Origin: Pseudomonadota bacterium
Lineage (GTDB): Bacteria; Pseudomonadota; Gammaproteobacteria; Pseudomonadales; Moraxellaceae
Assembly (NCBI GenBank): GCA_021781515.1
Contig: JAJXWR010000007.1
Location: forward strand, 1-53,194
Reading direction: 5' to 3'
DNA length: 53,194 nt
The position numbers were made by a program, and so were the translations under genes. The notes under the pieces were generated by a model. The model worked only from the letters and a program-made list of their open reading frames with translations, ran no database searches and was not told the DNA's origin. Shown one piece after another: positions 11,544 to 52,521 of the stretch. Every line of letters starts with the position of its first letter. Position 1 is the first letter of the stretch.

Positions 11544-12335
11544 TTGAAGATGAATAAAATTTTTGCGGTGGCGAATCAAAAAGGGGGTGTTGGTAAAACC
11601 ACGACCAGCGTCAATCTCGCTGCGTCACTGGCGGCGGCAGGCCGGAAAATTTTGCTCATTGATATGGATCCCCAAGGAAATGCGACCATGGGATCCGGTC
11701 TGGACAAGAACTCACTTGAATATTCGGTGTATCATGTATTGACGCGTACCACTCAGGGACACTCTGCAATTTTCCGGGAGTTGCAAGCGGGATACTCGCT
11801 GATGCCTGCCAATGGCGATCTGGTCGCTGCAGAAGTTGAACTGGTCAGTGTCATAGGTCGCGAAATGCGTCTTAGACAGGCTCTGGAAACCCTGCGGCCG
11901 CAATATGATGCGATTTTAATAGATTGCGCACCCTCATTAAGTCTGCTGACGATTAATGCCCTGGTCGCTGCTGACTCGGTGATTATCCCTATGCAATGCG
12001 AATATTTTGCGCTGGAGGGACTGGCGGCATTAAAAGATACAATCGACCAGGTGGCCCAGACCGTCAATCCTGGCCTGCATATCTCTGGAATCTTACGCAC
12101 CATGTTTGATCCGCGAAATTCATTGTCAACAGATATATCGGCAGAATTGCAACAGCATTTCCCCAAAGAACTGTATGAAACCATTATTCCACGGAATGTC
12201 CGTCTGGCCGAAGCACCGGCGCACGGTAAGCCCGCATTATATTACGATAAAACATCACGTGGGGCACTGGCATATCTGGCCCTTGCCGCAGAAATTATCA
12301 GACGACAGAATTCGGCTTCGGTGCAGTTGGCCTGA
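11544..12335 (+). CDS. parA: chromosome-partitioning ATPase ParA (Soj)
   Basis: A deviant Walker A ATPase that with ParB moves newly replicated origin regions apart. About 263 residues: KIFAVANQKGGVGKTTTSV carries the signature lysine and P-loop at the N-terminus, LLIDMDPQGNATMG is the A' motif and ILIDCAPSLSLLT is Walker B. Length and sequence are those of chromosomal Soj, not plasmid ParA with an HTH extension. GGGAGG lies 11 bases before a TTG at 11544 and 17 before the ATG at 11550; either could be the start. It is followed after 25 bp by parB, the order seen upstream of atp operons in Pseudomonas and relatives. Confidence 0.94.
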   Translation: MKMNKIFAVANQKGGVGKTTTSVNLAASLAAAGRKILLIDMDPQGNATMGSGLDKNSLEYSVYHVLTRTTQGHSAIFRELQAGYSLMPANGDLVAAEVELVSVIGREMRLRQALETLRPQYDAILIDCAPSLSLLTINALVAADSVIIPMQCEYFALEGLAALKDTIDQVAQTVNPGLHISGILRTMFDPRNSLSTDISAELQQHFPKELYETIIPRNVRLAEAPAHGKPALYYDKTSRGALAYLALAAEIIRRQNSASVQLA

Positions 12336-12360
12336 TTTCGCTTTAAGGGGTAGCGTCAAA

Positions 12361-13257
12361 ATGAATGGAAAAAAAAGAGGATTGGCAGGAGGTAGAGGGT
12401 TGTCTGCTCTGCTGGGACAGGCTCGGGAGGCTGTGGCAGAAGTGGCTGCTATAGAAGATGGGCATTATGATGACGGTGAACTCAGAAAAATCGCGCTGCA
12501 TCAATTACAACGAGGTGCTTATCAGCCGCGATGTGAGATGGATGAAGCGGCACTGGCTGAACTCGCTGATTCGATCCGTATGCATGGGGTTATGCAACCG
12601 ATCGTCGTACGGCAAATAGAGAACGGTCTCTTTGATATTATCGCCGGAGAACGGCGCTGGCGTGCAGCCCGTCTTGCCGGGCTGGAATTCATTCCCGCTA
12701 TAATCCGGGAAATACCGGATGAAACCGCAGCCATAATGGCTTTGATTGAAAATATCCAGCGGGAAGATCTTAATCCACTGGAACAGGCGATGGCGTTGCA
12801 AAGAATGGCGGATGAGTTTAGCCTGACCCATGAAAAACTGGCAGAATCCGTAGGCAAATCCAGGGCCGGGGTCAGTAATCTGATGCGTCTTTTGCAGTTA
12901 GAACCTGATGTGCGCCGATTGCTGGAAAATGGGGACATTGAAGTCGGGCATGCCAAAGCGCTGCTCGGACTGCAGGCGATCGCCCAGTCTGAAGCAGCCA
13001 GAACGGTATCAGCACGGGGGTTTTCGGTTCGGCAGACTGAAGATCTGGTACGTAAACTTCAGCTACAGGCCAGTCAGCAAGGCATCACCGACATTGAGGA
13101 AAAAGAAGACCCCAATGTGCGTAAACTGGTGAATGAATTGAGCGATCGCCTTGGGGCACCGGTACGTATTGTTCATGACAAGAAAGGCAAAGGACGTTTG
13201 ATGATTTCGTATAACTCGCTGGATGAACTGGACGGGATTCTGGCGCACATCAGATGA
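12361..13257 (+). CDS. parB: chromosome-partitioning CTPase ParB (Spo0J)
   Basis: Binds parS and spreads as a CTP-dependent clamp, recruiting ParA. It has 298 residues: an N-terminal region GLAGGRGLSALLG that contacts ParA, the CTP-binding motifs GERRWRAARLAG (about residues 97-108) and ENIQREDLNPLEQA, a helix-turn-helix for parS (LTHEKLAESVGKSRAGVSNL) and a C-terminal dimerisation domain. The ATG at 12361 has AAGGGG about 10 bases upstream; a longer open frame to 12106 overlaps parA and is not family-like. I found no parS sequence in this window. Confidence 0.94.
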   Translation: MNGKKRGLAGGRGLSALLGQAREAVAEVAAIEDGHYDDGELRKIALHQLQRGAYQPRCEMDEAALAELADSIRMHGVMQPIVVRQIENGLFDIIAGERRWRAARLAGLEFIPAIIREIPDETAAIMALIENIQREDLNPLEQAMALQRMADEFSLTHEKLAESVGKSRAGVSNLMRLLQLEPDVRRLLENGDIEVGHAKALLGLQAIAQSEAARTVSARGFSVRQTEDLVRKLQLQASQQGITDIEEKEDPNVRKLVNELSDRLGAPVRIVHDKKGKGRLMISYNSLDELDGILAHIR

Positions 13258-13325
13258 TTCAGGTCAAAAAAAACTGCACTTTATGGTGTAAATCAAGAAA
13301 ATCTGCTACCACAACCTAGTTTAGG

Positions 13326-13354
13326 TTGCCAACCTCCTGCAGAGTAATTATAAT
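13326..13354 (+). promoter_or_regulatory. atp operon promoter
   Basis: TTGCCA (13326-13331) and a perfect TATAAT (13349-13354) are separated by exactly 17 bp, one of the best sigma-70 promoters in the window. It implies a 5' leader of roughly 165 bases before atpI. A small inverted repeat (AACCTA/TAGGTT, 13313-13328) overlaps the -35. Confidence 0.8.
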
Positions 13355-13383
13355 CCGCCCGCTTGAATGATGTGCATGAAATT

Positions 13384-13503
13384 ATGTTCAAGTATGAAAT
13401 TTCCGAATATTGGCTTTACAGGTGGGACAGAAATCCGGTGGTATTGCTGGAAGTTAAAGCGTCCAGGCAGGAACTGAGCCATGAACAGCCGGGAACATCA
13501 TGA
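13384..13503 (+). CDS. possible 39-residue leader ORF in the atp 5' UTR
   Basis: An ATG-initiated frame of 39 codons lies entirely between the atp promoter and atpI: MFKYEISEYWLYRWDR, then NPVVLLEVKASRQELS, ending HEQPGTS. It ends 21 bp before the atpI ATG. The composition is ordinary for protein, but there is no clear ribosome site and I know no homologue, so it may be chance. A CTTGAA/TTCAAG inverted repeat at about 13362-13389 overlaps its start. Confidence 0.25.
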   Translation: MFKYEISEYWLYRWDRNPVVLLEVKASRQELSHEQPGTS

Positions 13504-13524
13504 TGCACAAGAGTGTCATGAGCA

Positions 13525-13896
13525 ATGAACCGTGATGAACGATGGCAGCTGTACGGCTTTCAGCTGGGACTGAGCGTACTGGCACTGCTCATTACTGTGG
13601 CGGTAAAACCCGCTGCTTGGTGGGGAACGATTGCAGGCAGTGCAGTTGCGTTGTTTTCCAGTGTCTGGTGGCAACGCAGAGCCGGCTCAGTTACAGCGGC
13701 TTCGAGGCCGGTAGACATGGTGAAGGTGTTTTATCAGGCAGAGTTTGAAAAGATCCTGTGGATTGTTTTGTTGCTGACGCTGATATTCAAAAATGGAACG
13801 ATTGTAAACAAAAGCTATGTGTTGCTGGGTTTCGGAATGCCCCAATTAGCAATGTTGCTGCTGGTTGTGTTCCGGTTGATGGTTGCAGGGCAGTAA
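13525..13896 (+). CDS. atpI: ATP synthase accessory protein AtpI
   Basis: A 123-residue membrane protein at the head of the atp operon, with four hydrophobic segments (about residues 10-25, 30-45, 72-88, 96-118). AtpI is thought to help assemble the c-ring; it is not a structural subunit. Recognition rests on position, size and the pattern of paired helices, since the family is poorly conserved in sequence. It ends 15 bp before atpB. Confidence 0.85.
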   Translation: MNRDERWQLYGFQLGLSVLALLITVAVKPAAWWGTIAGSAVALFSSVWWQRRAGSVTAASRPVDMVKVFYQAEFEKILWIVLLLTLIFKNGTIVNKSYVLLGFGMPQLAMLLLVVFRLMVAGQ

Positions 13897-13908
13897 TCGA
13901 GTAGGTGA

Positions 13909-14751
<843 letters not shown>

Positions 14752-14802
14752 GTTACAGAGGCACTGGCAACAGATTTTTTGTTAACAACGCAAAAGAGGT
14801 GA

Positions 14803-15075
<273 letters not shown>

Positions 15076-15175
15076 TTGCCTGGAAGATTATCAGGCAGTG
15101 CGGTGGATAATATATCAATGCATGGCGGATGCGCCTGGTGCATCCACAGATAACCATTGAGAATGAGGTGAAGGT

Positions 15176-15655
15176 GTGGATATCAATGCAACTTTGTTAG
15201 GCCAACTGGTTTCATTGGCTTTTTTCGTGTGGTTCTGCATGAAATTTGTCTGGCCTCCTATCCTTGCCGGTCTTTCAGAGCGTCAACGAAAAATTGAAGA
15301 TGGACTCAATGCGGCTGCTAAAGCGCAAAATGATCTGAGTTCAGCCCACGACCAGGTGGCTGCAGAGCTGAAGCAGGCCAAGCAGCAGGGAATGGTGCTG
15401 ATTGAACAGGCAGGGAAACGCGCTGAAGCTATCGTTGAAGAGGCCAAGGTCGCTGCGCAGGCAGAAGCCATGCGGATCAAGACGGCTGCACAGGCTGAAC
15501 TGGAGCAGGAAATTACTCGGGCAAAAGATCAATTACGTTTGCAGGTGGCGCATCTGGCGGTCATTGGTGCTGAAAAAATCCTGGCCGTAGAAGTGGATCG
15601 GGCGCGTCATGCCTCCATGCTGGAAGGCTTGGCTGCTCAGTTGACACATCTGTAA
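15176..15655 (+). CDS. atpF: F1Fo ATP synthase subunit b
   Basis: The peripheral stalk subunit, 159 residues: one N-terminal membrane helix ([20 protein letters not shown]) and then a long charged, Ala-rich coiled coil. It starts with GTG at 15176, with GAGGTGAAG just upstream. A 100-bp gap separates it from atpE, so some transcription or stability control may sit there. Confidence 0.95.
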
Positions 15656-15675
15656 TTTATTGGAGTCTGCTAGTC

Positions 15676-16218
15676 ATGAGTGAATTGGCAACCTTAGCCA
15701 GACCCTACGCCAAAGCGTATTTCAGACTGGCACTGGAAGAAGGGCAAATGGAACTGCGTTCCCGGGAACTGGCGTTGCTGGCCGTTATTATCAGGGACTC
15801 CAGTTTTATACAGTACCTTTCCCGGCCTGAATGGACGGCGGTTCAGCAGGCTGACCTGGTGTGCAGGATCCCTGAGGAACCACTGAGCTCTACAGCGACA
15901 GGTCTGGTTAATGAACTGGCGCACTATAAACGCCTTGCCTTGTTGCCGCAGGTGTTTGTTTTGTATGAACTGTATCGTTCAGAGGCACAAAGTACGATGG
16001 ACGTTCAGGTAACCACGGCCTTTCCATTAAGCGATACTGAAGAAGCGGAAATTATCAGAAGCCTCTCAGTGCGTATGGCAAGAACAGTCAAGGCCCATGT
16101 AGAAATTGATCCCTCCCTGATGGGAGGACTGGTGGTGCGCGCAGGTGATCTGGTCATCGATGCTTCCGTCCGCGGGAAGATTGCCAGACTTCGCGATACC
16201 CTGAATTCTCAAGCTTGA
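15676..16218 (+). CDS. atpH: F1Fo ATP synthase subunit delta
   Basis: Links the peripheral stalk to the top of F1; 180 residues. The N-terminal [18 protein letters not shown] and the C-terminal [24 protein letters not shown] are strongly conserved family elements. Its stop is 11 bp before the atpA start. Confidence 0.95.
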
Positions 16219-16229
16219 GGACCATTAGC

Positions 16230-17774
16230 ATGCAGCAATTGAACCCGGCAGAAATTAGTGAACTGATCAAGCAACGAATTGCTGATCTGCAGACAGGCGT
16301 TGAAGCAAAAAATGAAGGCACGATTGTGTCGGTGTCTGATGGTATTGTCAGAATTTATGGTCTCGCTGATGTGATGTATGGTGAGATGATTGAGTTTGAT
16401 GGCAATATTTTTGGAGTGGCGCTTAACCTTGAGCGTGACTCTGTCGGCGCTGTAGTGCTAGGTGATTACCTGTCCTTGGCAGAAGGCGATAAAGTGCGCT
16501 GTACCGGGAAAGTCGTTGAAGTTCCCATTGGCCCGGAACTTTTGGGACGGGTCGTGGATGCGCTGGGACGCCCGATTGATGGTCGCGGCCCGATAAATGC
16601 GGCGTTGCACGATGGAGTGGAAAAAGTGGCTCCGGGTGTGATCTGGCGTAAGTCCGTGGATCAGCCGGTGCAGACGGGTTACAAGGCAGTGGACTCAATG
16701 GTGCCGATTGGACGGGGTCAGCGTGAACTGATTATCGGAGACCGGCAGACCGGAAAAACCGCTCTGGCCGTCGACACCATTATTGCCCAGAAGGGATCAG
16801 GCATTAAGTGTGTTTATGTGGCCGTAGGACAGAAACAATCGACTATTGCCAACGTGGTACGCAAGCTGGAAGAACATGGAGCCATGTCTTACACCACGGT
16901 AGTGGCGGCTTCGGCCTCGGATCCTGCGTCCATGCAGTATCTGGCTCCGTTTGCAGGTTGCACTATGGGCGAGTATTTCCGCGATCGTGGTGAAGATGCG
17001 CTGATTATTTATGATGATTTGACCAAACAGGCATGGGCCTATCGGCAGATTTCTTTGCTATTACGGCGCCCCCCCGGACGTGAAGCCTATCCTGGCGACG
17101 TATTTTATTTACATTCCCGTTTGCTGGAAAGAGCGGCACGAGTGTCTGCTGAGTATGTAGAACGTTTTACTCAGGGAGCAGTGAAGGGTAAAACCGGTTC
17201 GTTGACGGCGTTGCCGATTATTGAAACCCAGGCCGGCGATGTCTCGGCGTTTGTGCCGACAAACGTGATTTCAATCACGGATGGTCAGATATTTCTGGAA
17301 ACCGGATTGTTCAATGCCGGGGTACGACCTGCCATGAATGCCGGGATTTCGGTGTCGCGTGTAGGGGGTGCGGCGCAGACTAAAATAATCAAGAAATTAG
17401 GTGGCGGTATTCGACTGGCACTGGCGCAATACCGCGAACTGGCCGCATTTGCGCAGTTTGCTTCCGATCTTGATGATACGACCCGTAAGCAACTGGAGCA
17501 TGGACAACGTGTTACAGAGTTAATGAAACAGAAACAATATGCGCCATTTTCCATTGCAGATATGGCTGTTTCTATTTTTGCCTCTAACGAAGGCTTCCTG
17601 ACGGATATTGATGTTAAAAAAATTGGTGCGTTTGAAAGTGCACTGTTGTATTTCATGAATGCCCAGTTCAAGGATCTGATGCAGAGTATTAATGAAACAG
17701 CGGACTACAACGGGGAAATTGAAGGCACCTTGCGCAAAGCGATACAGCAGTTCAAATCGACTCAGACGTGGTAA
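16230..17774 (+). CDS. atpA: F1Fo ATP synthase subunit alpha
   Basis: Non-catalytic nucleotide-binding F1 subunit, 514 residues. Walker A GDRQTGKT is at about residues 170-177, [17 protein letters not shown] is Walker B, and the arginine finger is in the [11 protein letters not shown] region. I chose the ATG at 16230 ([17 protein letters not shown]) with GAGG 9 bases upstream; the upstream TTG at 16215 would overlap the atpH stop. Confidence 0.97.
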
Positions 17775-17786
17775 GGGTGATATGCC

Positions 17787-18659
17787 ATGGCCAGTCTGAA
17801 AGAGATACGTATCAAGGTCGCCAGCATTAAAAGCACACAGAAAATAACCCGTGCCATGCAACTGGTGGCTGCCAGTAAAATGAAAAAGGCACAGGAACGG
17901 ATGAATTCCGGGAAGTCCTATGCCCGGAAAATTCGTGAAGTGATGGCGCATATTGCCCATGCCTCAACGGAATACCGGCATGAGTACATGCAACCACGGG
18001 CCGTGAAACGTGCGGGCTATATTATTATCAGTTCGGATCGCGGACTCTGCGGCGGCTTGAATATTAATCTGTTCAAGCGGGTATTGACGGAAATCCGTGC
18101 TGGCCGTGAACAAGGGGTTGAAGCCGAGTTTGTTTTGATCGGTCAGAAAGCCGTTAGTTTTTTTAAAAACGTCGGTGGACGGGTCGTCGGTGCCCGAACT
18201 CATTTGGGTGATGCGCCTTCAGAAGCGGACTTGATTGGTACCGTCAAGCTGATGCTGGATGCCTATTCCGAGGAACGTATCGATAGCATTCACTTGGTGA
18301 GTAACGTATTTGTCAATACCATGACACAGCAACCACAAATTCAGCAACTGGTGCCTTTACCCAAGGAAACGGTACAGGAAATGACCGCTAAAGGCGATAC
18401 CAGTTGGGATTATATTTACGAGCCCGATGCCAAGGAACTACTGGACCGGTTGATGGTTCGCTTCATTGAGTCCCAGGTGTATCAAGGGGTGGTTGAGAAT
18501 ACCGCTTGTGAACAGGCAGCACGCATGGTCGCCATGAAGTCAGCGACTGATAATGCCGGAGAACTGATCACTTCAATGCAACTGGTTTATAACAAGTTAC
18601 GTCAGGCAGCAATTACGCAGGAAATTTCTGAAATTGTAGGTGGAGCGGCTGCGGTCTGA
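17787..18659 (+). CDS. atpG: F1Fo ATP synthase subunit gamma
   Basis: Central rotor shaft, 290 residues. Family hallmarks are the N-terminal helix [20 protein letters not shown] with MVAASK-like [10 protein letters not shown], the internal [11 protein letters not shown], and the C-terminal helix [20 protein letters not shown]. It sits between atpA and atpD. Confidence 0.96.
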
Positions 18660-18680
18660 TTCACCTGGATATTTTTTTGA

Positions 18681-20087
<1,407 letters not shown>

Positions 20088-20123
20088 TGCTGACCCGAAA
20101 CAGACCTTAAGAGAGAACAACCG

Positions 20124-20549
20124 ATGAGTAAAACGGTCAAGTTGAGCATAGTCTCCATGAAGGGCCTGATTTATGAAGGGGATGTCAGCTTTGTGGTGGC
20201 GCATGGTGCGCATGGTGACCTGGGGATTACCCCGGGCCACACGGCGCTGTTAACCAGTCTGTTACCGGGCCCGGTGCGTGTCATGACGGCAGAGTCTGAA
20301 GACGTCTACTATGTGTCTGGCGGCATTATGGAAGTACAGCCCTATAAAGTTACTTTGCTGGCTGATAATGCCGTGCGTGCTGCGGATCTGGACGAAGCCG
20401 CTGCGGCACAGGCGCGTTCTCATGCCGAGCAGTTGATGCAGGAACAGCATGATGAAATGAATATCTCTAAAGCCTTGGAGCATCTTGCCCATGCCACGGC
20501 TGAATTGCGCACCTTGCAACAGCACAAGAACAGGGCCGGTCGGGGTTAA
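20124..20549 (+). CDS. atpC: F1Fo ATP synthase subunit epsilon
   Basis: Rotor subunit that couples gamma to the c-ring and can inhibit hydrolysis; 141 residues. The beta-sandwich (SIVSMKGLIYEGDVSFVVA, GDLGITPGHTALLT, YVSGGIMEV) is followed by a helical hairpin ending in ATAELRTLQQHKNRAG. It is the last gene of the atp operon. Confidence 0.95.
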   Translation: MSKTVKLSIVSMKGLIYEGDVSFVVAHGAHGDLGITPGHTALLTSLLPGPVRVMTAESEDVYYVSGGIMEVQPYKVTLLADNAVRAADLDEAAAAQARSHAEQLMQEQHDEMNISKALEHLAHATAELRTLQQHKNRAGRG

Positions 20550-22369: not shown

Positions 22370-24196
22370 ATGTGCGGAATTGTTGGGGCATTGGCGCAGA
22401 GAAATGTAACTCCGATCCTGATTGATGGACTGAAACGTCTGGAATATCGTGGCTATGACAGCGCAGGCATAGCGGTGTTAAATGGCGATATTCAGCGTGT
22501 ACGCCGTGTAGGGCGTGTGATTGAAACAGAAAATGCCGCAGAACAGGAAGAAATCCAGGGCAACCTAGGGATTGGGCATACCCGTTGGGCCACCCACGGC
22601 GGAGTGACTGAACCGAATGCTCACCCGCATGTATCCAAGGACCTGATCGCGGTAGTGCATAATGGCATTATTGAAAATCATGAGGCCAAACGCGAAGAAT
22701 TAGGTAAAAAAGGCTATGACTTCAGTTCACAGACTGACACCGAAGTTATTGCGCACCTGATTCACTGGCATTATTTACAGACGGCGGATTTACTAAAGGC
22801 GGTACAGGGGGCAATCAATGAGCTTGAGGGTGCCTATGCGATTGCTGTTCTGGCACAGGATCGGCCCAACGAACTGATTTGTGCCCGGATGGGTTGCCCA
22901 TTACTGGTCGGTATCGGACGCCAGGAATTTTTTATTGCCAGTGATGTCTCTGCCATTATTGCCGAGACGCGCAAAATTGTATTCCTTGATGAAGGCGATG
23001 TCGTGCAACTGCAATTGACAGGCATGCAGATTTTTGACAGACATCAGCATGCAGTCACCCGGCCGGTGCATACCAGCGACGTGTCGCTGGCTTCACTGGA
23101 ACTGGGGCCGTATAACCATTTTATGCAGAAAGAAATCCATGAGCAACCACAAGCCATAGCAGACACAATTGACAGCATACTGGAACTGGGATTTTCACCG
23201 GTACTCCTCGGTGATGCAGCGGAAGATCGCTTACGCCATTGCCAGGGCGTGCAGATTGTTGCCTGTGGAACCAGTTATTATGCAGGTTCGATCGCTCGTT
23301 ACTGGATTGAATCCTTGGTGGGAATACCCTGCCAGGTAGAAATTGCCAGTGAATACCGCTATCGAGACGTCGTGGTCAATCCTGACGATCTATTGGTGAC
23401 GATCTCGCAAAGTGGAGAGACACTGGACACCATGGAGGCGTTGAAATTTGCCAAACAACGCGGCGTCAAGACCGCCTTGTCAATATGCAATGTTCCAGAG
23501 AGCGCCATTCCTCGACACTCGGATCTGATATTTCTGACACGTGCCGGAGCCGAAATTGGCGTTGCCTCCACCAAGGCATTTACAACGCAACTCGTTGCCT
23601 TGTTTGCCCTGACGCAGATTCTTGCCAAAATACGCGGTCGGCTATCTTCCGCAGAGGAATTACGGCAACTGGATGCGCTGCGGCATTTACCGGTCAGCAT
23701 ACAACATGCCTTGAACCTGGAGCCACAGATACATGCCTGGGCTGAACAGTTTGCCAGCAAAGACCATGCACTCTTCCTGGGACGGGGCGTGCATTACCCG
23801 ATCGCCATGGAAGGGGCGCTGAAACTGAAAGAAATTACCTACATTCATGCAGAGGCTTATGCTGCGGGAGAACTGAAACACGGGCCACTGGCACTAGTTG
23901 ATGAGGGAATGCCGGTCGTTGTTATTGCTCCTAACGATGCTTTGTTGGAAAAACTGAAAAGCAATATGCAGGAAGTCCGGGCGCGCGGTGGCGAACTGTT
24001 TGTATTTGCCGACCAGGACAGTCATTTCACCAGCAGCGAAGGAGTAAAAGTTATTCGTACGCCACGGCACACCGGCGTGCTATCGCCGATTGTCCATGCT
24101 ATCCCCGTGCAGTTGTTGGCGTATCACACGGCACTGGCACGTGGTACGGATGTAGATAAACCCAGAAACCTTGCAAAATCGGTTACCGTGGAATGA
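22370..24196 (+). CDS. glmS: glutamine-fructose-6-phosphate aminotransferase
   Basis: Makes glucosamine 6-phosphate from fructose 6-P and glutamine, the entry step to UDP-GlcNAc. It has 608 residues. Cys1 of the mature N-terminus (MCGIVG) is the glutaminase nucleophile, HTRWATHG and HNGIIENH line that site, two SIS domains follow ([28 protein letters not shown]), and the C-terminus NLAKSVTVE is the conserved tail. The ATG at 22370 has GAAGGA upstream. The 3' end of glmS is the attTn7 recognition site, and a Tn7-like scar lies just beyond. Confidence 0.97.
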
Positions 24197-24220
24197 GTCA
24201 TCAGGACGATGTAAAAATGC

Positions 24221-24526
24221 TGTGTGCAGAAAATAAAGGTGTATCCCGCAGCCAAGTGTCTATTCTGTAAAAGAAGGATCTGGTTGGGAATGCGCTATGG
24301 CTAAACGACGCTACGGTATGGATAGTGCCAAGATTGCTAAATGGCACAAGGAAGGTCGTGGCCAAGGGATAGGAGCTGAGTACACAACTACGCATCAACT
24401 TTCTATAACTTCAAGCTGTTTAATTGCACTGAAAACTGACCCCATGCCATGGGGGTGCAGACAGCGCTTTGTGCTTTCTGGAGTCAATTCAGATGTTCAT
24501 GCGTGAGCACAGTAGGCACCCACACA
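24221..24526 (+). mobile_element. Tn7-like end remnant at attTn7
   Basis: Starts exactly 25 bp after the glmS stop, the insertion point used by Tn7 in other bacteria, with the terminus TGTGTGCAGAAAATAAAGG. Seventy-six bp inside it an ATG opens a tnsA start reading away from glmS, the orientation of Tn7's right end. A CACACA at 24521-24526 could be a degenerate opposite end, but the flanking five bases (AATGC left, GCCTA right) do not match as a target duplication. The outer limit is therefore a guess. Confidence 0.55.
24297..24506 (+). pseudogene. tnsA: tnsA N-terminal fragment (Tn7-like transposase)
   Basis: The first ~29 residues, MAKRRYGMDSAKIAKW then HKEGRGQGIGAEY, match the start of TnsA, the endonuclease that cuts the 5' ends of Tn7; the KEGRGQGxGxxY stretch is diagnostic. 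After GAEYT the family continues PWLT, but here the frame changes to unrelated sequence and stops at 24506. The catalytic domain is missing, so it cannot be functional. Confidence 0.75.
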
Positions 24527-24869
24527 GCCTAAGTCATTATACGTTAAGGATATTCAATTGATATTGATAGGATCCCGCTTATTCCCAATAAATACAAGAA
24601 GTTAAATGCAAATTTTTGAAGTGGTGTGATGCTTTAAGACTTTTGGCATCAAAGCTGAAAAATTAAAATCAATAGGTTGCTTTACTTTCAAGTAGGATAC
24701 CATATTCACATTTCAACATATTGAAGTAATTGTCTCTGCTGCCCATTAAACTGTGTTGAAGATCTGATCAAAGTACGTGAGACTGGGCACAGCGGCTCAT
24801 GAACTGATACAATAACGAGCATTGCCATGTGGGTAGGGGATCAACCCGGGTATGGAAATACATTCACAG
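24527..24869. other. non-coding tail between the Tn7 scar and the lipase-chaperone-like gene
   Basis: About 340 bp, AT-rich, with no open frame of note. An inverted repeat TGATGC/GCATCA at about 24627-24651 lacks a T-run. I recognise nothing else. Confidence 0.4.
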
Positions 24870-25547
24870 CTACCGAGGTTGATCTTGTTGGTGAGCAAAT
24901 GCCTCAAGGCGGCTCTGCATGGCGGTTAATTGGCGGATTCTATCTTCAGGACTGAGGTTGGAGTTTTGCAGAATAGACAGTTGATCAGCCGCCAGTGTGC
25001 TGACCTCATGCGATTGAGGAAATAAGGCCTGATCAATGTCAGCGCCAAGATACTGGGTGCGACGTTGGTCAATCTGAGCCTGCTGACTGAGAATCTTTGA
25101 ACTGCTGCTCAGACTGGTGGAGGTTTGCTGTTGGTTAAGTTGAGCAATAGCCTCCTGATAACGTTCGTAGTTAGCAAAAATGATCATGGCTTTTTGGACG
25201 TCACCGGGCTCAAGTTGAGTGTGCAGGTCGTGCAGCATTGTCTGGGTTTGTGCCATTCGATCAAAAGATCCATGTCTCAGATGTGCATCGAAAAACTGGC
25301 GAAGATGACGGTCAATAATCAAGTGGCCGTGCGCATCAAGACGCAGTTGGGGCAGTGAGGGGGCGTTGAGTGATAGGACGGATGGAGGTGGCGGCGTAGC
25401 GGCGAGAACCGGTGCGATGGTCTGAATTCGTGTCTGGAGGCGGGTGGTAGCGGGTCGAAGTGGTTCCGTATTTCGTTGGCTCATCCAGACAACGAGTGCC
25501 ATACAGCTTGAGGCAAGCAGAGTGATAGTGATGATTGTGCGGCGCAT
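24870..25547 (-). CDS. lipase chaperone (foldase)-like protein
   Basis: 225 residues: an N-terminal membrane anchor (RTIITITLLASSCMALVVWM), a Pro/Thr-rich linker (about 30-60), then a helical domain with the Lif-type element RHLRQFFDAHLRHGS (family consensus RxxFDY). Lipase chaperones are anchored in the inner membrane and fold a partner lipase in the periplasm before type II secretion. At 225 residues it is shorter than usual (280-340), mostly at the C-terminus, and the motif has FFDAHL for FDYxL. No lipase is adjacent; the neighbour is a GH5 enzyme. The start is the ATG at 25547, with a TTG at 25553 possible. Confidence 0.65.
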   Translation of the reverse strand: MRRTIITITLLASSCMALVVWMSQRNTEPLRPATTRLQTRIQTIAPVLAATPPPPSVLSLNAPSLPQLRLDAHGHLIIDRHLRQFFDAHLRHGSFDRMAQTQTMLHDLHTQLEPGDVQKAMIIFANYERYQEAIAQLNQQQTSTSLSSSSKILSQQAQIDQRRTQYLGADIDQALFPQSHEVSTLAADQLSILQNSNLSPEDRIRQLTAMQSRLEAFAHQQDQPR

Positions 25548-25600
25548 AGGCAAATCCGTTACTCAGGATCCCTGTAATTGAACAGGATGATCATAAGGAT

Positions 25601-25635
25601 AGGCGACCGATGGCAAGAGACAAGATCGGTCGCCT
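25601..25635 (-). terminator. 11-bp perfect inverted repeat between the GH5 and chaperone-like genes
   Basis: AGGCGACCGAT (25601-25611) and ATCGGTCGCCT (25625-25635) can form a strong stem with a 13-base loop, between the GH5 stop and the downstream gene. No T-run follows, so it may protect mRNA ends or attenuate rather than terminate. Confidence 0.5.
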
Positions 25636-25649
25636 GACCGTAAATCCAA

Positions 25650-27080
25650 TCAAAGTGCTGTAATGGAGACCTGCACCTCAGTGGCGGCTGGATCATTTTG
25701 AATCAGCAGCAAGGGTGCATTCGCTGCAGAAAGGACACTGCCCCCAGAGACCGTTACTTGATAACCATTTGGATAATGAATGGGCGGAACAAAAATCTGG
25801 GTTGGGGCCGATGCCGCCTGGGGTGCATAGGTGTAACTGAATGCACCGCTGTTGGGATCAAACGACAGCGATTGTGGAATCCCGGCCGTTGCCTGAGGAT
25901 AGGTGCGGGATAATAGCGCCAGTTTCCCCTGATTCACAGAGCCTAAGTCGCTGTCGTTGGCAAAAAGGCCTTCAGTTCCCGCAGCACCTGTGGGATCATT
26001 GAAACTCTTGTAGGCCCAGTAATCCCAACTCGTCAGAAACTGGTCTGCCATATTGGCTACACGTGCGATATCGCCAAGATCGTTACCCGAACCAAACTCA
26101 GACATAAAACTGCTGGCGTTCATGCTATTGCTGGTATTGTTGGCATTGTTGAAGACCGTCGTTTCCGGATTGACGCAACTGGAAGGGGTAGAAACTCCAA
26201 GCATCTGAGCAATATCGCTTTGCATACAGTAGTTGTGCCAGGAAAAACCAAGGTTATGAGTGTCCGAAACAGGCTGGGACGTATTCAGATAGCTAGGAAT
26301 GCCGAAGTCGAACAGCACATTGGGTTCAATCCAGATCATTCCGTTCGGGTCGACTTGGCGGATTCCTTGCTGCAAGGCTGTCTCAAAGGGCTGAAGGTAA
26401 TTAGAATCAAAGTCTTGGCAGCCGTTACTGAAGTAGCAAAGAGCAAATACAAAACCGGGTGGTGGCTCATTGATGACTTCATAGCCTTGAAGGTTGGACT
26501 GATTCTGCCATTTTGCTGCGACTGCCTGCAAAGCCTGCTGATAATAAGCCCAGATATTATTGTCGTTGGTGTAAAGGTGGTAATAGGTTAGTTGAACATT
26601 AGGCATGAGATAACCAAGAGGAAATCCCGGGTTGATCCAGTTCGGGATGCCATCGTCATAGACGGCCCAGGAAGGAAATCCCTCGCCCTTGAACTTCTCA
26701 TTGAACAGATCCTGATGAAAATCGAGAAGGACGTAAATGTTACGTGCCGCAAGCAATTGCACAATACGATCAACGTTGTTCAGATAATTGTTGTCGATCA
26801 CCCCTTGTTGCGGCATGACACCAGAGAAAAGTACTCCAAGCCGGACACTGTTGAAGCCCTGTGCAGCGAGCCAGTCGGCATCTGCGGAAGTAAATCCGCC
26901 AAGCGTGTCGGGCGGAAAATACGGTGCCTGCTTCCATACCACATTCATTCCGTGCAGCATGACAATGCGGTTATTGTCGTCAACCAGCCAGCGCCCCTGA
27001 CTTTGCAAACCCGCCATTGCCAGTAATGGCCATAGCAAGCTGATCATGATAATAAAAAGCTTCATCGACATGCGTTGCAT
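25650..27080 (-). CDS. secreted GH5 endoglycosylceramidase-like glycosidase
   Basis: 476 residues with a Sec signal peptide (MSMKLFIIMISLLWPLLAMA, cleavage after AMA). The (beta/alpha)8 domain begins GRWLVDDNNRIVMLHGMNVVW; the acid/base Glu is in YEVINEP and the nucleophile Glu in FMSEFGSG, the GH5 pair. The N-terminal HGMNVVWK and DFHQDLFNEKF resemble endoglycosylceramidases/GH5 lipid-glycan hydrolases more than cellulases. A C-terminal beta domain (about 390-476) follows, as in those enzymes. The start at 27080 has GAGAGGATC upstream. The substrate is unproven: glycolipid is the best guess, beta-glucan the alternative. Confidence 0.82.
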   Translation of the reverse strand: MQRMSMKLFIIMISLLWPLLAMAGLQSQGRWLVDDNNRIVMLHGMNVVWKQAPYFPPDTLGGFTSADADWLAAQGFNSVRLGVLFSGVMPQQGVIDNNYLNNVDRIVQLLAARNIYVLLDFHQDLFNEKFKGEGFPSWAVYDDGIPNWINPGFPLGYLMPNVQLTYYHLYTNDNNIWAYYQQALQAVAAKWQNQSNLQGYEVINEPPPGFVFALCYFSNGCQDFDSNYLQPFETALQQGIRQVDPNGMIWIEPNVLFDFGIPSYLNTSQPVSDTHNLGFSWHNYCMQSDIAQMLGVSTPSSCVNPETTVFNNANNTSNSMNASSFMSEFGSGNDLGDIARVANMADQFLTSWDYWAYKSFNDPTGAAGTEGLFANDSDLGSVNQGKLALLSRTYPQATAGIPQSLSFDPNSGAFSYTYAPQAASAPTQIFVPPIHYPNGYQVTVSGGSVLSAANAPLLLIQNDPAATEVQVSITAL

Positions 27081-27323
27081 GATGAGATCCTCTCTAGTTG
27101 TATTTGTTTTTGCTCTTGAGCCTGTACAGTGAAACATGTCAGGCCGGAATCTTGTTGTTAATGCAAGCGGATTCTAGCAACGCCTGGAATCACCGGCGAC
27201 AATTGGCCGAATTTGCTTATCCCATGACCGTAGATGCCTACCAGAACTTGAAGTTGAGATCAATGGCTTATTTACATTAATATTTTTGCTCTTTACCCAT
27301 AGATTACCGGTAATTTCTTGACT
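27081..27323. other. intergenic region upstream of the GH5 gene
   Basis: About 240 bp holding the GH5 promoter and the flank of the hairpin repeat. The small frames here are not convincing. Confidence 0.35.
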
Positions 27324-27389: not shown

Positions 27390-27676
27390 AAATGGAGCGA
27401 ATGACCATGACCGAGAAACTAACCACTTTCGATCCGGCCAAGCACTTAAATTCTGATCAGGCCATTGCCGACTTCATGGCCGGTGCTTTTGAGACGAACG
27501 ATCCCGGATTCAACGCTCACGCACTAGGCATTGTTGCTCGCGCCAAGGGCATGACGCAGATCGCCAATCAGACCGACCTATTGCGTGAACAGATCTACCG
27601 CAAACGGCAAAGTCACTTCAACGATCAGGATAACGTAATTCCTGTTTTGGCAGCGATTTTAAACGCAAGCTTCTGA
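27383..27676 (+). pseudogene. HigA-type antitoxin remnant, frameshifted
   Basis: The first 70 or so residues (TEKLTTFDPAKHLNSDQAIA, then FMAGAFETNDPGFNAHALGI, VARAKGMTQIANQTDLLREQ) match small XRE-type addiction-module antidote proteins. After REQIYR the family has a short loop and NGxPxxST; here another frame contains NGKVTSTI, while the annotated frame continues as RQSHFNDQDNV and stops. Part of the recognition helix region is lost and the frame shifted. No toxin gene is present. The likely true start is the ATG at 27407. Its end overlaps the 3' end of the ParA-like gene. Confidence 0.65.
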
Positions 27677-28608
27677 AAATCGGTGTAACAACTTCTTACG
27701 GCTTCGGTATGGGCACCAATGGCACCATCTGCCGATTTAAGAAAAAAAATCGGCTTGCGGGCTTCAATTGCCATTGGTATCAGACTTCGATAATGTTTGA
27801 GTAAGGCCAAGCAATAAGGATCGTTGGTGACTGCCGGTGTGGTCGAGATTTCTTCATCAAGAATAACTTCGCGATAAATCCCTGGAATTTGCTCCATCCA
27901 TCGCTTGTAGGCTTTGACAGGCCTTGTGTCGAGAATCCCATTCTGCAGCACAATATAACCGATGGGTCGCATCGTGTCTTCTGGCATTGGGAAATCAGTG
28001 GGGGCTTTTGTCAGCAGATCCGCCCAAACGGTACGCCATTCGCCTAATGTTGGTCCCAGATACTTTAGACCTTGTAAGGAAAAGAGATCTGGTGCGAGTG
28101 GAAAGCAAACCATATCAGAGGCAACTAGTGCCGAATGATTGATGGCACCCAGATTGGGGCCAAGATCAATCAATACGATATCTGCTTCCCAATCCGTACC
28201 TGGTTGAACAAGACGGTGAAACGCAGTCATTATGCGAAATGTTGATTCATCCGGATTGTGACAACGGAACCAGGCGTTCGAGAATTTATCCTCAAACCAG
28301 GATAATCCTGGATTGCCCGCCAGCAGCCCGAGGTTCGGCGTAATTTTCTCAATGGTGGGGGGCGCAATGTCACCGAGGCCGCAAAGAATCGGATGGATTG
28401 CTCCAAAAACTGTTTCGGGGTGATTATTATCTGACCAAAGAGTTTCAAGGCGATCCTCGTTCAAAAACATTGCGGTGAGAGTAGCCTGCGGGTCTAAATC
28501 AACAGCTAGTGTTTTGATTCCATGATCGGCAAACATCCATGCAAGGTGGTATACCAGTGAGGTTTTCCCCACACCGCCATTGTTGTTGAAGAAGGCTACC
28601 GTCTTCAT
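27625..28608 (-). CDS. ParA-like ATPase lacking the signature lysine
   Basis: A 327-residue SIMIBI ATPase (AAA_31/ParA family). The P-loop FNNNGGVGKTSLVYHLAWMF is at about residues 7-26: the usual KGG signature lysine is Asn, while the Walker A GKT is intact. The A' motif LAVDLDPQATLTAMF and Walker B IVLIDLGPNLGAINHSALVA are normal. It is clearly not the chromosomal ParA, being longer and sharing only the family motifs, and there is no ParB beside it. GGAGG lies about 7 bases upstream of the ATG at 28608, which overlaps by four bases the stop of the AlbA_2-type gene. Likely function: an accessory or defence-related ATPase; unproven. Confidence 0.85.
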   Translation of the reverse strand: MKTVAFFNNNGGVGKTSLVYHLAWMFADHGIKTLAVDLDPQATLTAMFLNEDRLETLWSDNNHPETVFGAIHPILCGLGDIAPPTIEKITPNLGLLAGNPGLSWFEDKFSNAWFRCHNPDESTFRIMTAFHRLVQPGTDWEADIVLIDLGPNLGAINHSALVASDMVCFPLAPDLFSLQGLKYLGPTLGEWRTVWADLLTKAPTDFPMPEDTMRPIGYIVLQNGILDTRPVKAYKRWMEQIPGIYREVILDEEISTTPAVTNDPYCLALLKHYRSLIPMAIEARKPIFFLKSADGAIGAHTEAVRSCYTDFQKLAFKIAAKTGITLS

Positions 28609-29789
28609 GCTGGCCTCCTGTATATTTTTACTAAGACCGAATGTGCATCAAAATAAAATTCAGCGGCCGGATTGCCGTTCTGCGAAAGTAAGGCCTGAGC
28701 ACGTTGAACACCATAACCAAAACGGTTTACAAAGCCGAGTGACTTCATTGCCTCAGCAAATAACAGGGTTTCGGTAACTATTCCGTGTAGGAAAGTTTTC
28801 TGGCGTTGCCTCACCATACAATCCACCCGGATTCTGAATTTCAATATGATCGCTAAAAACATAAAACCGGATTGGTGTATTGCTATCGTAGTTGCGATGC
28901 ATGACTGCGTTCATCAACAGTTCGCGCAGTGCCCATTCCGGATAGTCAGGAAGCAATTTTTCCTTAAGTGCGCTAATAGTGCGCATCGACGTCTTAATGA
29001 GCAGTTTTAACCGACCTTCCAACTCACGCAGTACCGAGTGAATATCTCCTGATATTTCAGCCTGATCTTCAGGCACGTCGATTAAATCAGTGCCTGGCAA
29101 TTTGAGGTACTGAACATATGCCCCTGGCAAAAAAACCGCAGGTTTTTTCCGAAAAGCAAAATACCTGCATGGGTTGGACAAGAGCGCTCAGGATCGTACA
29201 GCCGAAGCGACGCCAGCTGTTGTTCAATCGGTCTGTGGTTGGCAGCAATGGTCTCAGGATCAATAACTTCGCGACGATATGCGTCAAACTGGCCTAATGC
29301 CACTTCATCAAGAGTCGCTTCAGTACACGGACGTGCGTCAAAGTTACGAGCCAGCGCTACTCGCCGCTCGCTGAGCAGGCGCTCTTCCTGTTCATTGGCG
29401 AATGCCTTGCGCGGCCCAACGCGAATATGTACACGTCCCTTGTATCGCACCGGAGGAAGATCGGAGGGAAAAACCTCTACAACAGCAATTTCGCCATTCT
29501 CAAAGGAATACCTGGCAATATTCAGCATCGGTTGGGGTAGAATATTTCCGTCAGATCGAATTCCGCCAAGGTTTTTTAATAGTTCATCTGTCACAGTTAG
29601 GCCAGAGAGCGATCCATTGTCCTTGACTCCAACAAGCAAGTAACCCGGTTGACGATGATTGGGTAAATCATTGGCAAATGCGCAAATCGCCTGACTAAAT
29701 TTCTCTGTATTGGAGACGGATTCCGTACGTTCAATACGATCTGATTCCAAATCCAATAGCAACACTTTCAGTTGATCTTCGGTCAACAC
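28605..29789 (-). pseudogene. AlbA_2/Schlafen-type ATP-binding protein with two frameshifts
   Basis: Three overlapping minus-strand frames join into one protein of about 394 residues. The N-terminal AlbA_2 domain includes KFSQAICAFANDLP, GYLLVGVKDNG and RYKGRVHIRVGP; the C-terminal half resembles the HATPase_c_4 (RecG-like regulator) domain with PEWALRELLMNAVMHRNYD, FSDHIEIQNPGGLYG, NSYRNPVI and AEAMKSLGFVNRFGYG. The first break is in a 7-A run (29129-29135; one more base restores frame), the second in TTATTTGC near 28763 (one T too many). The GTG start at 29789 has GGAGG upstream. It is co-transcribed with the ParA-like gene (ATGA overlap). It may be a true pseudogene or carry two sequencing indels. 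Confidence 0.78.
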
Positions 29790-30361
29790 GGTGCCTCCGG
29801 GTTTTTTAATAGATCGCTTAACTACAGGTCGATTCGAGCCCAATCCGCTTCCAGTGTGCAGTGCCTATCAAATAGAACGACCCCCTATTTATTTAGGATT
29901 TATTTAGGTACCCGTCCACTTACACGACGGTCAGAATCGAATTTACAGCAACTTTTCCGCCAGTATTTCTCTTACAGGGTACATCAATCATTATTGCACT
30001 GTTTTTATTTTAGCAAGAATGGTGGTTCAAGAGCCATGATGTATTATAGAGAGGAATGCGGGTGGGGATCTGTTGAGCAAGTAGCAAAAGACGGTATTTT
30101 ATCCGCTGCCTAAAATAAATCAGCCCGAACAGATTCCTTAACCCCCTTCCACTCACTGAAGAAATCTGGCTAAAATAAACAGGTTGGCCAGTTGTACGAA
30201 GAATTTTTCCAGAGCAGCACACCTCCGCAGGAACAGGCGGGGCAATCGCGGAGCGTTTTCTACCGTGGTGATCGGTGATCCGCCTGGCTTGAAATAGTGA
30301 TGGGGTAAACGTACGGCAAATTGTGTTAAGGATCAGTCAGCAATTCTCAGGAGGCGCTACG
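29790..30361. other. intergenic region between the AlbA_2 operon and sbcD
   Basis: About 570 bp. It should hold divergent promoters for the AlbA_2/ParA operon and sbcDC. The small open frames on both strands match nothing I recognise, and I see no RNA gene. Confidence 0.4.
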
Positions 30362-40395: not shown

Positions 40396-41099
40396 TGTTA
40401 CCACTAGCCTTGTTGGCGGGAGGGCTGGCGACACGTTTGCGGCCGTTGACGGAGCACATCCCTAAATCCTTAGTCGAAGTGGCAGGAAGGCCGTTTATTG
40501 CTCATCAACTGGAGTATCTTGGTACTCAGGGGATTGATGACGTGGTGGTATGCATTGGTCATTTGGGTGCAATGATTCAAGCTGTGGTGGGTGATGGTCA
40601 TCAATTCGGGGTGCGGGTCAGATATTCTTCAGATGGCCCTGTGCCGTTAGGCACAGGGGGCGCTTTACGACAGGCACTGCCTTTATTGGGAGATGCATTT
40701 TTTGTTATGTATGGGGATTCTTATTTACCAATTTGCTTAGCCGAGGTTGAGACGGCATTTCTGGGCGCAGCTCAGCCTGCATTGATGACTGTGTATAAAA
40801 ATGATGGTAAGTTTGATGTCAGTAATGTTATTTTTGTCGATGGAGTGATTCAGTGTTACGATAAAAAAAACAGGCAGTCGTCAATGAACTATATTGACTA
40901 TGGGCTGAGCGTTTTATCCAGAAAAATATTGCAAAATTATCGAGAAGGTACCGTTTTCGATATCTCCGACGTATTCAGTGTGTTGTCCTTGCAGCAGCAG
41001 TTGGCGGCTTTCGAGACGTTTTCACGTTTTTATGAAATAGGTTCCTATCAGGGGCTGCAAGAGATGCAGGTTTTGATGACATCGGGAGCGAGCAAATGA
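40395..41099 (+). CDS. hddC: sugar-1-phosphate nucleotidyltransferase, HddC-like
   Basis: 234 residues, the size of D-glycero-alpha-D-manno-heptose 1-phosphate guanylyltransferases. The signature LALLAGGLATRLRPLT then EHIPKSLVEVAGRPF is at the N-terminus, and PLGTGGALRQA and VMYGDSYL (metal-binding Asp) follow. It starts at ATG 40395, overlapping the hddA stop (TGATG). GDP versus other nucleotide specificity is inferred from context. Confidence 0.83.
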   Translation: MLPLALLAGGLATRLRPLTEHIPKSLVEVAGRPFIAHQLEYLGTQGIDDVVVCIGHLGAMIQAVVGDGHQFGVRVRYSSDGPVPLGTGGALRQALPLLGDAFFVMYGDSYLPICLAEVETAFLGAAQPALMTVYKNDGKFDVSNVIFVDGVIQCYDKKNRQSSMNYIDYGLSVLSRKILQNYREGTVFDISDVFSVLSLQQQLAAFETFSRFYEIGSYQGLQEMQVLMTSGASK

Positions 41100-47896: not shown

Positions 47897-48867
47897 TTAA
47901 AGCACCATGGTACGGTAATATATGTTATATCATATCGTTTGAAAAATTACGATTTTTAGTAAACTCGCCGAGTTTGTGTTGGTTATTATGTTTTACTGCA
48001 TTTATAAAATAAAAAACCAACAAGCCACAATAATATCAAATAAACCAAAAAACATGTCAAGCATGGTTTGATCGCCATTAATATCAAGTATATGTCTGAT
48101 ATTTATTCAATGTGTTATTATTTGATGCACTCACACCATGTACATATCATAAATTCATGTGTTCATATTTTGATTTTATTTGACTTAAAACCTGCAGCAA
48201 CCAAAAGAGGCCATAGCTGATTTTTGCTGTGTACATTTTATGATCATTCATTTCTTCGGTTGGTGCCACTTCAAGCGTAAAAACCAAAAATTCAAGAACG
48301 ACTTTTCCTTTCTAACTTGGTACGTTTAAACAAAGTTTTCCGTCAGATTTTAGTAAGCGGAACAAACATGACAGAGTTTCGACTGGAGCATCAAGATTTT
48401 TAAGAACAGAAATTAAAATTATACCATCAAAAAATCTGTTTGGTAATGAATATAGAGTTTCGGTAACTACTCACCTGTCGGGTAACGAATAAGGATTAAT
48501 CGTGTGAAGCCACGATGAATCCGATTGTTGGACAAGCCCAGAGGAGCTCAGATGAACTCAAAAAATGCGTGTTTTTTGGGGGCAGCGGCTATGCAAATAT
48601 ATTCCGGACGGCGATATTCATTCTGACCCGTATTTCAGATCAACACGCCCATCCTGTCAGTAATCATTGCCATTGCGGCAACCAGATTCTGTTTTTCACT
48701 GTATTGTACTGATTTTTTGCCATTATTGAGTAAATTTTGACTTTTTTGGGCGAGTTTGCCCACTCTCATCTTGGAAGACAAGTTTGCCAACCTGATTTCA
48801 GTTACATGATGACGGAATCCATTGCGACACAGTGTTAAGTTGAATCTTTGTGGATTGAATGGGATTA
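47897..48867. other. AT-rich intergenic region with gene debris
   Basis: 970 bp, strongly AT-rich from 47900 to 48480. It contains the methyltransferase fragment listed separately. The minus-strand frame 48635-48910 and the short plus-strand frame at 48515-48712 match nothing I recognise. Confidence 0.45.
48312..48470 (-). pseudogene. methyltransferase fragment
   Basis: Reading the minus strand from a stop at 48471-48473 gives VVTETLYSLPNRFFDGIILI, then SVLKNLDAPVETLSCLFRLL and KSDGKLCLNVPS, then a TAG. The FDxI....VLEHLxxPxxxLxxLxxLLKPGGxLxxxVP pattern is the C-terminal half of class I methyltransferases. Only about 52 residues survive, with no SAM motif upstream. It resembles, but is not a copy of, the two intact methyltransferases nearby. 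Confidence 0.6.
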
Positions 48868-51642: not shown

Positions 51643-51718
51643 GCCGGCATAGCTCAGTTGGTAGAGCAGCGCATTCGTAATGCGAAGGTCGGGGGTTCGA
51701 CTCCTCTTGCCGGCACCA
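51643..51718 (+). tRNA. tRNA-Thr (anticodon CGT)
   Basis: 76 bases. The acceptor arms GCCGGCA and TGCCGGC pair fully, the D-arm is AGCTCAGTTGGTAGAGC, the anticodon loop is TTCGTAA between GCGCA and TGCGA, and the T-loop GGTTCGACTCC is present. CCA is encoded. Anticodon CGT reads ACG (Thr). It is followed by integrase debris, suggesting it served as an attachment site. Confidence 0.95.
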
Positions 51719-52029
51719 TTTCATTAGCGTATATTGTTGATTTATAACAATTTTTTTATTAAATTTGCTATATATGGAATCGTACCCTGCTGCGTTTGGT
51801 GCGACCAAAGCGTTCAGATGTCACTCATGTACGACTTTACTGTATCTTATGTTGAGTATTCAGTTATGTGGATTCGTCTGCTGACATGTTTGATATTGCA
51901 ACGTTTCCTGTATCAGTGGCTTGAGACCATTCCACATAATCATCAAAGCCGACGAAGCCAGTCGGTAATATCGTTGCCACGGTAGATGTAGGCACCGCCT
52001 TTCGGTGGAGCCATTGCCTCGGGAAATAC
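51719..52029. other. spacer between tRNA-Thr and integrase remnant
   Basis: About 310 bp. One 83-residue open frame (51734-51985) has no recognisable features. I looked for a repeated tRNA 3' end (an attR-like copy) and saw none inside the window. Confidence 0.35.
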
Positions 52030-52335
52030 CTAGGCAAGAGCTTGTCGCTTCAGGTCAAGATCGGCCCGAGCGTATCGCATTGTTGTGTTCAAACTCGCAT
52101 GGCCGAGTCATTGGCTGATGGTAGCGAAATCGATCCCAGCTTTGAGCAGATGGATGGCGGTCGTGTGGCGCAAAGAATGGGGGTGAATTCGCTTTCCGGT
52201 CAGGGACGGAGCTATGTTTGCGCTAACGGCGACATATTTTTGCAAGAGGTATCGAACGCCAAATCGAGTCATTTGATCTCCATGACAATTTATGGTGATG
52301 GGACAACTCAAATCAAACAGAAAGGGTTGAGGATG
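52030..52335 (-). pseudogene. tyrosine recombinase C-terminal remnant with nonsense codon
   Basis: Reads MTRFGVRYLLQKY, IHPHSLRHTTAIHLLKAGID, FATISQ, then TGA (52110-52108) where the family has Trp, and continues in the same frame LGHASLNTTMRYARADLDLK to a TAG at 52032-52030. It thus keeps the HxxR box, the LGHxSLxTT box and the catalytic Tyr, but lacks the N-terminal half and carries a TGG-to-TGA change. It reads toward the tRNA gene, as integrases at tRNA sites commonly do. Confidence 0.78.
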
Positions 52336-52521
52336 TAGCAATTGCTCGATTCGATTACAGAGCAACGGCCATTCGTCTTTTTCCAGCGCAAAGTGTTTTC
52401 CCAGGTTGAGCAAAGTGATCTGGCGCACTGTCCCACTCACACGTTCACAGTGTACTAATCGATAGGTGTAATACCCCTCACCGGTGATTTTACTTTTGGT
52501 TCTTGTTTCACGAATGTACAT
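52336..52521 (-). pseudogene. IS1634-type transposase N-terminal fragment
   Basis: The first ~62 residues, MYIRETRTKSKITGEGYYTY, RLVHCERVSGTVRQITLL, NLGKHFALEKDEWPLLCNRI, match the start of IS1634-family (IS4 superfamily) transposases. The frame then runs straight into recombinase sequence, so a deletion has fused the two. Confidence 0.65.

Follow-up and report, generated by a model that had tools for sequence, protein, structure and literature searches.

In Tn7, the tnsA side of the element adjoins glmS, and Tn5468 of Acidithiobacillus ferrooxidans is a further Tn7-like element found behind this gene. A passage of one published source places the Tn7 insertion ~20 bp past the glmS stop (PMC2918618). 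Here we describe the region behind glmS in a 53,194-nucleotide stretch of DNA (the window), which is one contig (C135) of a 142-contig, 2.79-Mb assembly. Its gene order, judged by what we take the sequences to encode, is atp genes, then glmU and glmS. We consider it very likely that the site holds a decayed Tn7-like relic of ~498 bp, left by insertion at attTn7 and later deletion, and consisting of a right end, 29 tnsA codons, an insertion-sequence-like fragment and a left end (Table 1). Similar to Tn7, whose TnsA is represented in the PDB by 1F1Z and 1T0F, the relic lies behind glmS, has a TGT terminus and starts TnsA in register. Unlike Tn7, it is only ~0.5 kb long, has no tns genes past the 29 tnsA codons and has no target duplication.

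Table 1. Features of the glmS-distal region, with positions in the window.
Feature	Position	Strand	Remark
glmS	22370..24196	+	3' end is the attTn7 target
AATGC	24216..24220	.	5-bp flank expected to duplicate on insertion
Tn7-like right end	24221..24296	+	terminus TGTGTGC, then TnsB-like site
tnsA stub, codons 1-29	24297..24383	+	MAKRRYGMDSAKIAKWHKEGRGQGIGAEY; from sequence searches
Breakpoint sequence	24384..24407	.	in frame with the stub, unlike TnsA; by eye
Insertion-sequence-end-like fragment	24408..24443	.	TTGCACTGAAAACTGACCC core
Best place in third left-end slot	24569..24588	-	score -1.2, below zero, unconvincing
TnsB-like site, second from left terminus	24623..24642	-	68 bp further in than the terminal one
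TnsB-like site, terminal left-end	24691..24710	-	
Probable left terminus ACA	24716..24718	.	then TATTG
Genes beyond the relic	24870..27137	-	lipase-chaperone-like 24870-25553; GH5 25650-27137
Relic signatures			terminus TGTGTGCAGAAAATAAAG; TnsA start MAKRRYGMDSAKIAKWHKEGRGQG

The initial annotation placed a Tn7-like end 25 bp after the glmS stop, and the position holds: TGTGTGCAG begins at 24221, 25 nt past the TGA at 24194-24196, with tnsA, present as a stub only, adjoining it and reading inward. The TGT terminus stands at +25 or +26 in all 12 fetched relatives that carry tnsA or a stub beside glmS; a 13th fetched region (G122) has its tnsA away from glmS. In the closer relatives G001, G019 and G004, right ends start at +27, +26 and +27. 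The same-family elements of G026, G115, G124 and others share with the window both the +25/+26 terminus and a first site 7 nt in. Ten of the 12 relatives have 20-bp sites of the GAGTAATAAAGTNTCATACT type in tandem (two to four copies), starting 7 nt from the terminus, and the right ends of G026 and G159 are without a site of this type. The window retains a single related TnsB-like site, AGAAAATAAAGGTGTATCCC (24228-24247), at the same 7-nt offset; tandem sites two and three are unrecognisable. The site is a weak match, scoring -1.6 (below zero) with a strict matrix, and a softened matrix finds 159 equally good positions among 106,350. When a TGT exactly 7 nt before the site is required, three places in the window, counting both strands, are as good, 24228 among them.

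As annotated, an ATG at 24297, 76 nt inside the right end, opens MAKRRYGMDSAKIAKWHKEGRGQGIGAEY and reads away from glmS. The claim that this is a TnsA-like N-terminus is borne out by similarity beyond chance in tblastn, phmmer and genome searches. Against plasmids, tblastn returned 92 records, in all of which the match spans 80% or more of the 33-aa query (best E 1e-3), and 13 among the 20 of them that were listed are annotated as TnsA. A phmmer search of 177,635 distinct PDB sequences gave two matches at E<=10, both Tn7 TnsA; they are weak (E 0.88 and 0.89) and run in register from residue 1. A search of 149 genomes matched the stub in 24, its own included; of the 23 others, 13 regions were fetched, and the remaining 10 had weak matches (E 0.28-0.93). 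In a search at the level of the order, the best match has E=1.5e-4. Relatives include homologues with long open frames; those compared across all 29 residues show ~45-59% identity in the rows shown, and the best matches among the genomes show 48-65% over the matched parts of the stub. G026, G115, G124 and others differ from the window in having a full-length tnsA frame, and G026 and G115 in having tnsB as well.

A profile match to residues 1-29 had been put forward as a check. Pfam and NCBIfam profiles gave no match to the stub, and PF08722 found nothing in its own genome and was also silent in all 14 control genomes. Because pairwise searches match TnsA in register, we regard the null profile result as uninformative for a stub of 29 residues. 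In 80 named glmS loci, many with short downstream flanks, tblastn with the stub and with G026 TnsA found nothing at E<=0.05, and a plasmid DNA search with 24197-24900 was likewise empty at E<=0.1. The remainder of tnsA is indeed missing here: similarity ends at codon 29 (24383), and by eye the frame past Tyr29 is no longer TnsA-like.

The position, the spacing of the terminus, the single TnsB-like site and the start of TnsA together give good support to a past insertion of a Tn7-like element at attTn7, and this part of the initial annotation stands. Its second part, the collapse of the element to a right end alone, is probably incorrect, since 0.5 kb further on there is an arrangement that resembles a left end and is oriented as one should be.

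The initial annotation had also looked to related genomes for the same 300 bp behind glmS or for an intact element. Among 58 genomes, glmS-anchored DNA matches extend no more than ~14 nt beyond the stop (to query position 310), and the sole other match beyond is a 32-nt insertion-sequence-like fragment in G019, so none shares the 300 bp. The same intact element was not found in the genomes searched, but in relatives this position is occupied by intact elements. The relics of G066 and G016 are similar to ours, with glmS followed by a right end and then a tnsA broken soon after its start. They differ in that G066 has a second right end directly after, whereas in G016 the frame breaks early and no insertion-sequence fragment is seen. 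In detail, the first 420 nt past glmS in G066 (L141, G066:C174) hold two stacked Tn7-like right ends at attTn7, the first tnsA stub of ~25 codons running straight into the second right end, which has its own tnsA start. In G016 (L017, G016:C10), the right end behind glmS and the early-broken tnsA frame lie at ~1783-1960 and form another relic. We also observed, in G006 (L144, G006:C50), a second, diverged glmS 3' tail ~1.47-1.54 kb downstream of the resident glmS; matching residues 584-608 (64% identical, E=0.008), it is a duplicated attTn7-like target.

The candidate left end consists of two minus-strand TnsB-like sites (scores 9.5 and 14.7) before an ACA ending at 24718; in relatives, left-end sites run the opposite way to right-end sites, and with this boundary the relic would probably span 498 bp (24221-24718). 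Their 68-bp spacing is like that of the G124 main left end (66 and 54 bp between successive sites) and of a mini-element in G115 (67 and 55 bp); in the G115 main left end, the first two sites are 55 bp apart, not 66-67. The terminal site lies 8 nt from the terminus, compared to 7 in relatives, and TGT is all that the left terminus, TGTTGAAA, has in common with TGTGTGC at the right end. Taken as arrays, the right end shows one of three expected sites and the left end two, the third slot scoring below zero. The initial annotation had suggested a minimal deletion interval ending at a CACACA (24521-24526). This finds no support, as no TnsB-like site precedes the CACACA (best minus-strand score -4.6), and 24718 is preferred as the other end.

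That target duplications do not match had already been remarked for the shorter interval, and it is equally true at 24718, where AATGC at the right end faces TATTG at the left instead of a 5-bp duplication. In G124, GTTAG stands on both sides of the element. Between 24231 and 27000, AATGC does not follow any ACA with up to one mismatch. When the whole window was searched for a left end that repeats the right terminus together with AATGC, one chance match with two mismatches came up at 40559 (2.94 expected), and a further such search returned only the right end itself. Given that neither the target duplication nor the terminal repeats match, the two ends may stem from successive insertions. The right end and tnsA would then come from one element and the left end from another, probably older, a deletion having joined the two. 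Such a hybrid is a variant of the decayed-relic explanation and not an exclusive rival to it, and we hold it to be a real, though not the favoured, possibility. Apart from the differing flanks, it draws on the left terminus, which is closer to the right terminus TGTTGGA of the same-genus G001 and of G004 than to its own right end, and on the precedent of the right ends stacked at attTn7 in G066. However, simple mutation could account for the flank, and the likeness of the termini spans few bases.

A rival to a decayed relic with both ends is that only the right end and the tnsA stub are real, the sites at 24623-24710 being chance and the rest of the element having been deleted together with flanking chromosome. 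The absent target duplication and the poor terminal inverted repeat are in keeping with this, as is a generic three-site cluster test, which was not significant: such a cluster turns up in 18% of random 500-bp local sequences, and the third slot here is below zero. Left-end spacing also varies among relatives, and this lesser uniformity raises the odds of the right-end-only reading. Against it, a spacing-aware test, the only left-end test to reach significance, puts the arrangement at 24718 first on both strands of the whole window with a score of 23.1; the runner-up, at 48237, scores 22.4 and is without TGT. Two local Markov models never reached 23.1 in 2000 sequences each, and in ~3.4 Mb of real DNA (both strands) just six places did, 24718 included; two of the other five, L017 and L079, proved on inspection to be Tn7-like ends. 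The real-DNA control retained the window, omitted its copies and the loci listed with tnsA matches or right ends, and includes some duplicated stretches; the remaining three places are L070, L032 and L033. The spacing ranges (64-70 and 52-58) were chosen once the sites in the window were already known, around the values of G124 and of the G115 mini-element, and the G115 main left end falls outside them. On balance, the statistical test suggests a left end at 24623-24718, and we think it unlikely that the right end and stub stand alone.

What separates the stub from this left end may bear on how the element decayed. We take the fragment at 24408-24443 to be an insertion-sequence end, probably of IS21 type. 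It occurs once in this genome at up to two mismatches, and its core, TTGCACTGAAAACTGACCC, was found once in G019 (eight genomes searched) and once on an Undibacterium plasmid. On a Lichenicola plasmid, a diverged copy stands with IS3-type/istB genes on one side and other genes on the other; two plasmid neighbourhoods were examined (from four plasmid matches), and only that of Lichenicola has insertion-sequence genes near the fragment. The fragment could be a remnant of the event by which the element lost its other parts, and G066, where a tnsA stub runs into a second right end, shows something comparable.

For the decayed relic we envisage the following course. A Tn7-like element would have entered attTn7, its right end facing glmS; a deletion, perhaps mediated by an insertion sequence or nested element, would later have broken it and left ~498 bp, from which nothing functional is likely to be made. 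The relic records how a Tn7-like element came to lie behind glmS and decayed there, in a lineage of which little is known. It adds one more case to a kind already known, an unremarkable fossil at a site often used by Tn7-like elements, and leaves our understanding of the mechanism unchanged.

TniQ was not detected in the relic's own genome (G000), while the G026 control was positive, and a search of G000 with G026 TnsB as query likewise found no TnsB, with G026 and G115 positive. This protein search replaced the profile PF09299, which was silent everywhere, even in the tnsB-bearing G026. Neither tnsB nor tnsD/tniQ, as would be expected of a Tn7-like element, was thus detected in this genome; we therefore class the remains as a relic and not as a functional member, presumably immobile. 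TniQ and TnsB were not detected in the genomes of G001, G019 and G004 either.

These null results also bear on whether the 498 bp might be a non-autonomous mini-element of ~0.5 kb, inserted in one piece and mobile, now or in the past, through transposases supplied in trans by incoming relatives. Two precedents are a 491-bp element in G115, with both end types and a 5-bp duplication (AAAAT), and an ~8.4-kb segment behind glmS in Duganella flavida with both ends, AATGC flanks and no TnsA by tblastn. But the window has no duplication, the tnsA stub inside it fits deletion better, and TniQ and TnsB went undetected in the genome; we consider this reading quite improbable.

The G115 mini-element (L133, G115:C1) lies 1075-1565 nt beyond the end of glmS, where it is inserted in a larger Tn7-like element, within the 5' part of its tnsB. 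Its right and left ends are of Tn7 type, AAAAT flanks it on either side, and it contains a 77-aa open reading frame (L133:3347-3580). As a sub-kilobase element with Tn7-type ends, it is a more useful lead than the relic itself. The D. flavida segment (L079, ~11830-20209) also has Tn7-type right and left ends, and the AATGC on both its sides is the same five bases as the right-end flank in the window; its lack of a tblastn match suggests an island without its own tnsA.

A metagenomic misassembly joining the right end to unrelated sequence is very improbable: although the site seems hard to assemble, with the contigs of G001, G004 and G019 ending 144-222 nt into their right ends, the GH5 gene ~1.3 kb past the breakpoint is 90% identical to one in the same-genus G002, so both sides of the breakpoint belong to the lineage, and the only shift in base composition is a fall to 45% GC between 24001 and 25000. 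The contigs concerned (G001:C97, G004:C80 and G019:C165) carry CTATGG[C/T]T shortly past their sites, and their ends may reflect variable islands in the population.

We also considered whether the genes beyond the decayed relic could be transposon cargo, and rejected this. The same-genus G002 has relatives of both (lipase-chaperone-like 56%, GH5 90%) in a different neighbourhood, and because this pair sits elsewhere the two genes are better read as chromosomal neighbours. The first 10 kb of the G002 contig with the pair show no glmS match, and in the DNA search of relatives' genomes glmS of G002 was unmatched.

Further along the window, a ParA-like ATPase gene (27625-28608) stands beside an AlbA_2/Schlafen-type gene on the minus strand (28753-29843), which is split between two frames and is probably a pseudogene. 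Near the contig end, the region 51643-52521 holds a tRNA-Thr and, ~0.4 kb from it, a phage-integrase-family fragment on the minus strand (52108-52521).
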